Shown here one piece after another: positions 2,528-27,918 of a DNA stretch of 64,000 nucleotides. The notes under the pieces are model-generated. The model made no database searches. It saw only the letters and a program-made list of their open reading frames with translations, and was not told where the DNA came from. This stretch comes from Opitutia bacterium. GTDB taxonomy: Bacteria; Verrucomicrobiota; Verrucomicrobiia; Opitutales; Opitutaceae. The DNA lies in assembly GCA_016187945.1 (NCBI GenBank), contig JACPIT010000004.1, positions 1 to 64,000 of the forward strand, in the 5' to 3' direction. The position numbers were made by a program, and so were the translations under genes. Within the stretch, counting starts at the first letter, position 1, and every line of letters starts with the position of its first letter.

Positions 2528-3889
<1,362 letters not shown>

Positions 3890-25216: not shown

Positions 25217-25665
25217 GTGAGAAGGACGCGGCGCGAGGCGCGATAGCCGGCGAATTCATCCATCGCGGCCTGATCCTCGACGAGCGACGCGGCGCGGTGC
25301 AGCGCGCGGGCTTTTTCCTCGAGCTGGTTGACGATCTTGAGCTGCCGGCTCGCCTCGAGGTATTCGGCGCGGCGCTTTTGCATGACGTCGCGCGCCTCGA
25401 TGACGCTGCGTTCGACCTTCAACTCCTCGTCGCACTCTGCGCGATACGAACGGAAGAGCGCGGCCGCCTCGGCGGCGAGGAACGTGCCGCCACGACCGTC
25501 GAACAGCATCTGCGCCAGCCCGGCCACTCGCGCGCGTGTCGCGGCGAGCAGCTCCTCCGCTTGGACGTAGGCATGGACCGAGGCGGCGAACGCCTCGCGA
25601 GCGCGCAGCTCTTTGTGCGCGCGGATGACGGCCACGGGCCGGAGAGGGAAACGGAAACGTTTCAT
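25213..25665 (-). CDS. fliJ: Flagellar export chaperone FliJ
   Basis: 150 aa, almost entirely helical coiled coil, starting MKRFRFPLRPVAVIRAHKEL, the typical FliJ N-terminus (FxFxLxxVLxxR...E). It sits between fliI and the MotE-like gene and overlaps both by 4 bp (ATGA). FliJ is the stalk of the FliI ATPase ring and escorts chaperones. Sequence conservation of FliJ is low, so context carries weight. Confidence 0.87.
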   Translation of the reverse strand: MKRFRFPLRPVAVIRAHKELRAREAFAASVHAYVQAEELLAATRARVAGLAQMLFDGRGGTFLAAEAAALFRSYRAECDEELKVERSVIEARDVMQKRRAEYLEASRQLKIVNQLEEKARALHRAASLVEDQAAMDEFAGYRASRRVLLT

Positions 25666-26984
25666 GGCACGAGGATTTTCCTGAGCAGTTTGAAGGACTC
25701 CGCGCGGGGCGTGTGCTCATGCACGCGTTGGCGGAGGAAATTGCGGAGCGGCTCGTGGAGCGCGATGGACTGGTCGAGCGCGGCGTTCGCGCCTTTCTGG
25801 TAGGCGCCGATGGAGATGAGGTCTTCGTTTTTCCGGTAGAGCGCGAGGTGCTCGCGGGCTTTCGCCGCGAGGTCGACCTCGTCGGGCGTGCAGACGTCGC
25901 GCGTCAGACGGCTGACGGACTCGAGCACGTCGACGGCCGGGTAGTGATTGAAATGCGCGAGCGAGCGCGAGAGCACCAAGTGCCCGTCGAGGATGCCGCG
26001 CACGGCGTCGGCCACGGGCTCGTTCATGTCGTCGCCCTCGACGAGCACGGTGTAAAGCGCGGTGATCGCGCCGGACTCGCCGGCGCCGGAGCGCTCGAGC
26101 AGACGCGGGAGCAGCGCAAAAACCGATGGCGTGTAGCCGCGCGTCGCGGGCGGTTCGCCGATGGCGAGGCCGATCTCGCGTTGCGCCATCGCGAAACGCG
26201 TCACCGAGTCCATCATCAGCATGACGTTCTTGCCCTGGTCGCGATACGCCTCGGCGATCGATGTCGCCGTGAACGCAGCGCGCAGGCGCAGCGGCGCGGG
26301 CGTGTCGGAGGTGGCCACGACGACCACGGAGCGTTTCAGGCCCTCGGGGCCAAGATCCTTTTCGATAAACTCGCGGACTTCGCGACCGCGCTCACCCACC
26401 AGCGCGATGACGACCACGTCGGCCGAGCAGCCGCGCGCGATCATGCCGAGTAAAGTGGACTTACCGACGCCGGAGCCGGCGAAAATGCCGAGACGCTGGC
26501 CGCGTCCGATGGGCGTGAAAGTGTCGAGCACGCGCACGCCGGTCGTGAGCGGTTCGCGGATACGCTGGCGGCGCAGCGGATGCGGCGGCGTGGTGGCGCG
26601 ATCCGTGCGATCGACCGGCAGCAACCCGAGTTCGTCGAACGGACGACCGAGCGCATCGAGCACGCGACCGAGCAGTTCCGGGCCGGGGCGCGGCAGTGGC
26701 GGACGATCCGCCGCGGCGACTTCGCAACCGACGTGCAAGCCCGACGTGTCGCCGAGCGGCATGAGCAGCACGCGATGTTCGCGGAAGCCCACGACTTCGG
26801 CGCGCACCTCGAACTCCGTGCGCGGCGAGCGCACGAGGCAGAGTTCGCCGAGGCCGACGTTCGGGCCTTCGGACTCGATGATGAGACCAGCGACACCGGT
26901 GACCGCGCCGACGCGCTGCACCGCGGGCAGGTGTTTCACCTGCGTGCGGAGCACATCGACGAGCGGTGCGACGGTGGCGTTCAT
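25662..26984 (-). CDS. fliI: Flagellum-specific ATPase FliI
   Basis: 440 aa, F1-beta-like export ATPase. Walker A GIFAGSGVGKSTLLGM (about 162-177), the family motif VGERGREVREFIEKDLG, Walker B region NVMLMMDSVTRFAMAQREIG, and GEPPATRGYTPSVFALLPRL are all intact. It energises and times unfolding of export substrates at the gate. The ATG overlaps the stop of orf120 by 4 bases and its own stop overlaps fliJ. Confidence 0.97.
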   Translation of the reverse strand: MNATVAPLVDVLRTQVKHLPAVQRVGAVTGVAGLIIESEGPNVGLGELCLVRSPRTEFEVRAEVVGFREHRVLLMPLGDTSGLHVGCEVAAADRPPLPRPGPELLGRVLDALGRPFDELGLLPVDRTDRATTPPHPLRRQRIREPLTTGVRVLDTFTPIGRGQRLGIFAGSGVGKSTLLGMIARGCSADVVVIALVGERGREVREFIEKDLGPEGLKRSVVVVATSDTPAPLRLRAAFTATSIAEAYRDQGKNVMLMMDSVTRFAMAQREIGLAIGEPPATRGYTPSVFALLPRLLERSGAGESGAITALYTVLVEGDDMNEPVADAVRGILDGHLVLSRSLAHFNHYPAVDVLESVSRLTRDVCTPDEVDLAAKAREHLALYRKNEDLISIGAYQKGANAALDQSIALHEPLRNFLRQRVHEHTPRAESFKLLRKILVP

Positions 26985-27343
26985 GCGCAGTCATCCTCCA
27001 GCGTCATGTCACCGATAAGGTGACAAACCTCCGCGCCATAGCCGCGCGACTCACTCGGAGACTCCTCGTCGTTGTCACCTAATAGGTGACAAACCGGAGC
27101 GGCCGGGCGCGCGGTTTCGCGGGCGGCGGCGGCGGTGACGGCGGTGGTCGCGAGAGAAGGAAATCCGTTCGGGTAACCTAATAGGTTACCGTTCGCAGGG
27201 GCGCGGCTCGCGTTTTCACTCGGGAGCGCGCGCGAGGTGTAACCTATTAGGTTACACTCGCCGGCTTGTTCCCGAGTGAGGCGTGCGGAGGTGTAACCTA
27301 TTAGGTTACACTTCGCGGGGGCGGACTGTTCGCGGGGGGTCAT
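26981..27343 (-). CDS. Palindrome-built repeat protein between fliH and fliI (orf120)
   Basis: 120 aa. Its ATG overlaps the fliH stop (ATGA) and its stop overlaps the fliI ATG (ATGA), so it is embedded in the operon by translational coupling. The protein has five copies of a short repeat: KCNLIGYTS (11-19), ECNLIGYTS (29-37), GNLLGYPN (52-59), VCHLLGDND (84-92), VCHLIGDMT (106-114), separated by polar/Ala-rich linkers of 10-24 residues. Each repeat is encoded by an odd-length DNA palindrome (27007-27025, 27072-27092, 27172-27190, 27237-27257, 27291-27311). Codons CTA and ATA, otherwise rare here, are used in them. No known family was recognised; an 840-base overlapping frame in fliH is an artefact. 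The role could be in the protein, in RNA hairpins, or in DNA binding. Confidence 0.75.
   Translation of the reverse strand: MTPREQSAPAKCNLIGYTSARLTREQAGECNLIGYTSRALPSENASRAPANGNLLGYPNGFPSLATTAVTAAAARETARPAAPVCHLLGDNDEESPSESRGYGAEVCHLIGDMTLEDDCA
27007..27311. repeat. Array of five odd-length palindromes inside orf120
   Basis: The units on the + strand are TGTCACCGATAAGGTGACA (7-bp arms, 5-base centre), TTGTCACCTAATAGGTGACA plus one A (10-bp arms, 1-base centre), GGTAACCTAATAGGTTACC (9-bp arms, centre A), and two of GTGTAACCTATTAGGTTACA plus C (10-bp arms, centre T). Centres lie 66, 99, 66 and 54 bases apart. The outer arms vary while the core CCTAWTAGG is constant in four, and arms co-vary (GTCAC with GTGAC, GTAAC with GTTAC), which shows selection for self-complementarity. 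Confidence 0.9.
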
Positions 27344-27918
27344 GCGCCGGTGAGAGAGTGCGTGAGGGCGGCGAGCTTCGTTTCCTGGCGGGCGTCGGTG
27401 AGGCCGAAGCGCGAGCGGACGAGGCAATCGCCGGGTTTCAGCGTGGCGTCGGTGCGAACGACGAGGCGGGGGTAACGCGCCATCCACTCGGGATTGAGCG
27501 CGGTCAGGAGAGCGGCGTCCCGGACGCTGAGCGAGAGTTCGAGACCCTCGCGCTCGGGAAAAAGTTGTTCCAGGGCTTCGCGACAGAGGCGCTCGATCGT
27601 TTCGACGGGGGGCTCGAAGCCGGCGAGGAGGCGGTGCGCGATGTCGACCGCGAGGCCAGGGAGCGAATCGCGGAGTTGGGCGACGAGGGTGGGCTCGAGG
27701 ACGGAGAGTTTTTTCAGCACGCCGTCGCTGAGCTGCTCCATGTCGACGCGGAATTCGACCATCTGCTGGTCGGCGGCGGCGCGGGCGGAATCGACGCCGC
27801 GGCGGTAGGCTTCCTCGCACTTCGCCGCGACTTCCGTCTCGGTGTAGACGCGGCCCTGGCCGGGCAGCACGGCGGCGGCGAGCGGACGGTCGAAGGCGAT
27901 GAGCTTGGAGTAACCCAC
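27340..27918 (-). CDS. fliH: Flagellar assembly protein FliH
   Basis: 192 aa. The order fliG-fliH-fliI and the layout fit FliH: a short N-terminus, a helical middle with AKCEEAYRRGVDSARAAADQ (the AxxxGxxxA-like helix), then a globular C-terminus with LSLSVRDAALLTALNPEW and LKPGDCLVRSRFGLTDARQE, the latter a FliH/YscL-type GDCxVES-like motif. FliH regulates FliI and docks it to FliN. Conservation is moderate. The stop overlaps the ATG of orf120. Confidence 0.88.
   Translation of the reverse strand: MGYSKLIAFDRPLAAAVLPGQGRVYTETEVAAKCEEAYRRGVDSARAAADQQMVEFRVDMEQLSDGVLKKLSVLEPTLVAQLRDSLPGLAVDIAHRLLAGFEPPVETIERLCREALEQLFPEREGLELSLSVRDAALLTALNPEWMARYPRLVVRTDATLKPGDCLVRSRFGLTDARQETKLAALTHSLTGA

Follow-up and report, generated by a model that had tools for sequence, protein, structure and literature searches.

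Populations of REPINs decay in the absence of their partner. The descriptions of REPIN-RAYT systems cited here have the partner gene beside or between the repeats and several pairs of repeat type and partner within one genome (PMC3116915; PMC3733652), and REPIN populations are described in a further study as persisting for a long time (PMC8049555). One of these accounts also deals with RPEs and intragenic REPs, palindromic repeats inserted in frame in unrelated proteins, and with CGTC repeats, including RPE-4 and RPE-6, which according to it seem to be without a dedicated transposase (PMC3733652).

The present study concerns a 64,000-nt stretch of an Opitutia genome (contig JACPIT010000004.1; hereafter the window, meaning the whole stretch analysed), in which a small frame between fliH and fliI carries several palindromes. 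The comparisons reported below make it likely that this frame was invaded by palindromic dimers which are spread genome-wide and which have a cognate XRE-fold protein as their binder and keeper.

Results

On the minus strand of the window, orf120 (26981-27343; 120 aa), a small open frame colonised by palindromic elements, lies between fliH (27340-27918; PF02108) and fliI (25662-26984; PF00006, PF18269, PF02874). As the sequence-only reading had described, the frame begins with an ATG that overlaps the stop codon of fliH and ends with a stop codon that overlaps the ATG of fliI, in both cases as ATGA. The orf120 protein matched nothing in Pfam or PHROG. An Rfam search of the whole window gave 0 matches, and a known RNA family was rejected. 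The five palindromes previously noticed in the frame were all recovered, GTNACCTAWTAGGTNAC being exact in four and carrying two mismatches in one, with match starts at 27008, 27074, 27173, 27239 and 27293. At up to three mismatches the window held six matches against 0.05 expected, a number reached in 0 of 100 shuffles; the sixth match, at 3422 with two mismatches, is unrelated. The palindromes, which have no strand, are number 5 (decayed, TGTCACCGATAAGGTGACA; 27007-27025), number 4 (TTGTCACCTAATAGGTGACAA; 27072-27092), number 3 (GGTAACCTAATAGGTTACC; 27172-27190), number 2 (GTGTAACCTATTAGGTTACAC; 27237-27257) and number 1 (again GTGTAACCTATTAGGTTACAC; 27291-27311). Their repeated peptides were as first reported. 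The linkers had been called unrelated, which holds for their sequence overall but not for the motif ACTCGG, common to three of the four: between palindromes 5 and 4 (27053-27058, plus strand; spacing 66), 3 and 2 (27218-27223, plus strand; spacing 66) and, reversed, 2 and 1 (27272-27277, minus strand; spacing 54).

Only one reading phase of TGTAACCTAWTAGGTTAC is open, the other two containing TAA or TAG, so that the peptide C-N-L-[IL]-G-Y is forced on either strand; the GTCACC form of the palindrome reads C-H-L-[IL]-G-D. A common peptide therefore requires no selection at the protein level. The earlier suggestion of a metal-binding Cys/His repeat lost its footing here, since the only open phase dictates the peptide and the cysteine is often lost (GNLLGY, SNPIGY).

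The junction was compared in 11 of the 13 genomes of the genus (the window genome included), namely those in which FliH was found. The gap between fliH and fliI measures 3 nt in G096 and 6 nt in G177, whilst in G133, G163 and G202 it is occupied by a small coupled frame without palindromes (67-97 nt). One decayed palindrome is present in G200 (79 nt), two are present in G201 (124 nt) and in G040 and G074 (226 nt), and the window genome has five in 358 nt. The junction of G116 (143 nt) holds a different type, TTTACGTAWTACGTAAA, which resembles the palindrome flanking the second XRE-fold gene of that genome. Among the nine genomes with a gap above 6 nt, eight keep the small frame open and in register with both overlaps, G116 being the exception, and insertion thus seems to be filtered for coupling. 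The insertion series is real and inherited. Most likely this junction tolerates the element as a passenger: any insertion leaving the coupled frame open would survive, and the peptide CNLIGY would then be forced.

The window genome carries 34 exact copies of the palindrome at 18 places, against 0 for a reversed-pattern control, and the palindrome was found in 55 of 200 genomes of the family, with 0 to 54 copies each. Copies occur singly or as dimers, whether between genes or, in frame, within proteins. Two odd-centred palindromes of 17-21 bp, commonly 45, 54 or 66 bp apart, make up the dimer that is the basic unit. Among 35 distinct pairs spaced within 43-68 bp, collected both in the window genome and in regions retrieved for congeners and for other genera, spacings of 54 (15 pairs), 66 (nine) and 45 (four) prevailed, and 28 spacings were multiples of three. 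The motif CTCKG was present in 27 of the 35 distinct linkers (shuffled mean 7.4, maximum 17 in 2000) and in 25 its distance to a palindrome was 4-7 or 14-17 nt (shuffled mean 1.8, maximum 9).

Co-variation of the arms, previously noted within orf120, extended beyond the window: over 112 sites the third-base pairs were A-T in 81, C-G in 25 and mismatched in six. Complementarity continues past the 17-mer far above chance, by up to 14 more pairs in other genera, with arms specific to each copy. Perfect palindromes of 37-45 bp, the outer arms of which are copy-specific yet self-complementary, were seen at L061 (1487-1531), L115 (404-442 and 848-884) and L216 (1432-1472 and 1868-1908); long arms of this kind could reflect hairpin-templated repair, terminators or longer binding sites. 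In the aligned copies, by eye and uncounted, no GTAG or CGTC tag was seen at the foot of the palindrome.

Two arrangements in one relative, G064, may be recorded. At L334 (G064:C1:2648150-2648750) five tandem units of about 90 bp contain a single GTAACCAT-type palindrome each, an arrangement resembling the tandem REPIN clusters described in Pseudomonas, and at L113 and L114 a pair of similar stretches, separated by about 345 bp and with one palindrome apiece, lies in GC-rich repetitive sequence. A virus-borne element was rejected, with 54 stretches, of one site each, among 2.9 million IMG/VR contigs.

Outside the window, palindromes lay within long frames resembling known proteins (judged by eye) in 10 of 17 fetched regions. 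Six insert-bearing genes were aligned with those of congeners, the names of their products being read by eye and not taken from a family search: a rhamnosidase, an epimerase, a RumA-like methyltransferase, a glycosyl hydrolase, a SAM methyltransferase and a NadR-like ATPase. Across congeners the sites are shared, the palindromes kept or decayed and the linkers scrambled. Insert-free alleles were found for the RumA-like gene (G096, G163, G189, G133) and the NadR-like gene (G163, G133, G177, G189). The proposal that mobile palindromic units insert in frame is supported by the dispersed copies, the in-frame inserts in enzymes, the insert-free alleles and the junction gap series of 3-358 nt.

Of 13 dimers read in the relative G027, 11 share a 48-bp spacing, and the mean identity of their linkers, aligned with one of the 11 rows left in reversed orientation, was 0.77 against 0.33 for the flanks. 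In that genome the partner gene stands between two palindrome pairs, of which at least one has a matching linker. This relative offers the best evidence for the dimer as the spreading unit, and its sequences point to recent spread. At the old sites of the window genome the linkers are dissimilar between copies apart from the motif, which indicates no recent spread there.

The partner gene was represented four times in the window genome. A palindrome cluster (GTAACCTAWTAGGTTAC) encloses the first member (C9:39604-39957; 118 aa), and the second (C9:904275-904598) is flanked by TGTAGTCTAWTAGACTACA. A third (L382, G000:C8:455200-456800; gene near C8:455790) has ATGGCGTATTACGCCAT on both sides, and at a fourth (L218, G000:C1:107400-109400) no flanking palindrome was found. 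Relatives were detected in 103 of the 200 family genomes, and at E <= 1e-8 in 14 of 288 sampled genomes of the phylum, all 14 from Opitutaceae; named loci encoding the protein come from Opitutus, Lacunisphaera, Didemnitutus, Synoicihabitans and other Opitutae/Verrucomicrobia records. Up to eight paralogues occur per genome (G093), and three of the four in the window genome have three different flank types.

At 57 of 82 non-identical loci the gene is bracketed by palindromes of the same type, an arrangement seen in 2 of 70 Y1_Tnp regions and in 0 of 520 shuffles; the two Y1_Tnp positives, L082 and L093, should represent a single Y1 gene that has palindromes of its own and was retrieved twice. 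Altogether, 74 of the 82 loci have a palindrome on at least one side, 17 on one side only and eight on none. The flanking types comprise GTAACCYAWTRGGTTAC, GTCACCTAWTAGGTGAC, GTNACCATWATGGTNAC, GTCACGTAWTACGTGAC, TTTCACGTAWTACGTGAAA and TGTAGTCTAWTAGACTACA, and others such as ATGGCGTATTACGCCAT and TTTTGCGTAATACGCAAAA. Among 62 loci, the stop codon of the gene lies inside the downstream palindrome at eight, and the palindrome centre lies exactly 13 nt past the stop at 13. At L093 (G000:C9:597600-600900) a RAYT-like Y1_Tnp gene (1127-1888) is flanked by its own REP-like palindromes, GGGCGATAWTATCGCCC, with GGAG before them; the whole resembles an ordinary REPtron within the window genome.

Gene neighbours were compared at 18 loci, a biased sample found by the profile of one family branch, and were homologous downstream at 14 and upstream at 12 (by eye, dus and a PatB-like aminotransferase). 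Inheritance at these 18 loci therefore looks largely vertical, which speaks against the XRE-fold gene hopping as a cassette.

An AlphaFold2 model, built from a 23-row alignment with relatives from the named records (mean pLDDT 81.6), has a helix at residues 6-33 followed by a four-helix domain. VIA-align matched residues 44-113 to XRE, POU, controller and repressor domains with Z of 6-8 (best 8.0), values that the tool warns can be unspecific under 8. A Foldseek search listed several XRE-type chains in its first rows but no match at E <= 0.001, and such misses do not equal an absence of relatives; matches to HTH_3 and YdaS fell below the cut-off. The model predicts for the protein of about 118 aa a lambda-repressor-like/XRE helix-turn-helix fold with an N-terminal helix. 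No Pfam, NCBIfam, PHROG or PADLOC family was matched at cut-off or with a convincing E-value, and no catalytic domain was recognisable, which is absence of evidence. An anti-phage system was set aside, two of the XRE-fold proteins having no PADLOC match. No paper describing the pairing of gene and repeat was found in the open-licence PMC literature, and the XRE-fold partner family seems to be previously undescribed.

Palindrome types were then compared with gene types. The flank of the second gene, TGTAGTCTAWTAGACTACA, recurs at 20 places in the window genome at up to two mismatches (10 exact, three of the 20 being the flanks; control 0). CCATWATGG was present in all four genomes expected to carry it, with 41, 9, 54 and 15 copies (flanks included), and in 0 of 13 others; the four are not independent, as all come from one genus, and one of them has a single match to the reversed control. 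NACGTAWTACGTN had 41 copies in G027, 36 in G003 and two (its own flanks only) in G191, all expected; outside the expected genomes it was found in G040 (11), G198 (seven), G093 (three), G090 (three) and G111 (one). Among these extra genomes G093 has a gene that matches and G090 one that partly does, and the two further genes of G040 do not. Of three predictions put to a blind test, those for G027:C135 (residue N, base A) and G093:C26 (residue Q, base A) held and the one for G040 failed, its TTACGTAWTACGTAA repeats flanking neither of its other two genes.

A helix residue and a palindrome base fitted each other at 48 of 53 loci in a first set: the residue after QR[LVI] was D or H at 17 of 19 base-C loci (one exception being unreadable by the pattern) and at 3 of 34 base-A loci. 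Among the genomes with the CCATWATGG type, G064 (residue G) has GTAACC in the listed copies, and G111 and G128 (residue H) mostly GTCACC. In a second set, from which L396 was left out as a repeat of the first-set locus L207, five of eight new loci fitted, and L387, L391 and L394 break the rule of D/H with C. On the tree the base changes five times and the residue class nine times, with two independent pairs on well supported branches, below significance; the co-variation is suggestive only, because independent changes are too few after correction for descent.

By hand count, the XRE-fold gene is present in 49 of the 55 palindrome-bearing genomes versus 54 of the 145 others, those 54 perhaps carrying other types; six of the 55, including G018 with five copies, lack a detected gene. 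Within the 10 genomes of the genus covered by both the palindrome and the gene search, those with the gene hold 34, 42, 51, 15, 8 and 0 (G163) copies and those without it 0, 1, 0 and 0. The idea of the sequence-only reading that a dimeric DNA-binding protein acts on the palindromes gains indirect support from this cognate family, through type matching and flanking.

Discussion

In the mechanism proposed here, several copies of a short interspersed palindromic element would have invaded a small, translationally coupled frame between fliH and fliI. Every palindrome type would be paired with one XRE/lambda-repressor-fold protein of about 118 aa, the gene of which mostly sits between two copies, and a dimer of this protein most likely binds the palindromes and preserves their population intact, palindromes being few or decayed where the gene is absent. 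Direct binding, and a part of the protein in spread or maintenance, are inferred from sequence comparison. A further-reaching version is advanced tentatively, as somewhat less probable than its negation: the palindromes would form a mobile class with the XRE-fold protein as its sole dedicated gene, existing as orthogonal, co-diverging and coexisting pairs and writing peptides into proteins, and the protein itself, alone or via a host nuclease, would drive spread or repair. The pairing of this protein family with matched repeats of its own lends itself to simple binding assays; dozens of natural protein-palindrome pairs are available for reading a recognition code, and the palindrome inserts are natural cases of short insertions tolerated by enzymes.

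Chromosome-organising proteins have dedicated sites, those of Noc, MatP and SlmA being examples. The palindromes could likewise be sites that the host maintains by selection for a chromosome-organising protein or a global regulator, with nothing selfish about them and with the genic inserts as a by-product. Conserved positions across congeners amid scrambled linkers, preferred spacings with a motif at fixed distances, the homologous neighbours kept by the gene (14 downstream and 12 upstream, of 18) and the scarcity or decay of palindromes where the gene is absent would all suit such sites, but the near-identical dimers that the relative G027 carries in unrelated flanks, extra in-frame residues in housekeeping enzymes and a patchy presence in 55 of 200 genomes would not, and up to eight paralogues (G093) with three flank types in the window genome would be odd for one housekeeping function. 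This explanation is rated as rather unlikely, though it is the strongest of the alternatives.

A doubtful alternative is that a Y1 transposase (RAYT) encoded elsewhere in these genomes moves the palindromes as ordinary REP/REPIN elements, with the XRE-fold gene a bystander or repressor. Y1_Tnp genes are indeed present in these genomes, and a published survey describes O. terrae, from the same phylum, as rich in GTAG REPs, some of them inside genes (PMC3733652). The palindromes studied here occur, however, in 0 of 70 fetched Y1_Tnp regions (some overlapping) versus 49 of 58 XRE-gene regions, and a RAYT as the partner was rejected on these counts; no GTAG tag was seen, and one Y1 gene of the window genome carries different palindromes of its own.

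It is very unlikely that the palindromes are RNA hairpins or DNA operators selected at fliH-fliI for control of translation or transcription there. The ATGA coupling at both ends, the co-varying arms and the frame kept open and in phase in eight of nine genus genomes with a gap above 6 nt would accord with such control, yet the element is present at 17 other places in the genome, congeners have a gap of 3-6 nt or no palindrome, and Rfam has no match within the window. The dedicated translation or decay device for this junction that had been considered at the outset is unsupported because of those 17 other places.

The view of orf120 as a functional protein of Cys/His repeats under selection at the peptide level deserves almost no credence despite the recurrence of CNLIGY/CHLIGD in it, given that TAA/TAG in the other two phases force the peptide, unrelated enzymes carry the identical peptide, the cysteine is not conserved, orf120 has no family match and the dispersed palindrome copies already contradict the idea.

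The favoured interpretation, an invaded frame with a cognate XRE-fold protein, can be set beside three known systems. With lambda cI and restriction controllers it shares the fold of residues 44-113 and palindromic sites adjoining the gene; here, in contrast, dozens of sites are spread genome-wide, some within genes, in addition to those on both sides of the gene, and the XRE-fold protein matches no established family at cut-off. With RPEs it shares in-frame palindromic repeats in diverse proteins, here with insert-free orthologues, but the present palindromes have a partner gene, and to our knowledge no partner gene is known for RPEs.

The likeness to REPIN-RAYT extends to palindrome doublets at preferred spacings, a dispersed population (with near-identical dimers in G027), a partner gene beside or between the same repeats, and several repeat types per genome, each with a partner. 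The system works like REPIN-RAYT but lacks the defining Y1 transposase: the partner has an XRE-type DNA-binding fold, as modelled, with no Y1/HUH domain found, the palindromes are perfect, odd-centred and without a GTAG tag, and in-frame copies inside genes are common.
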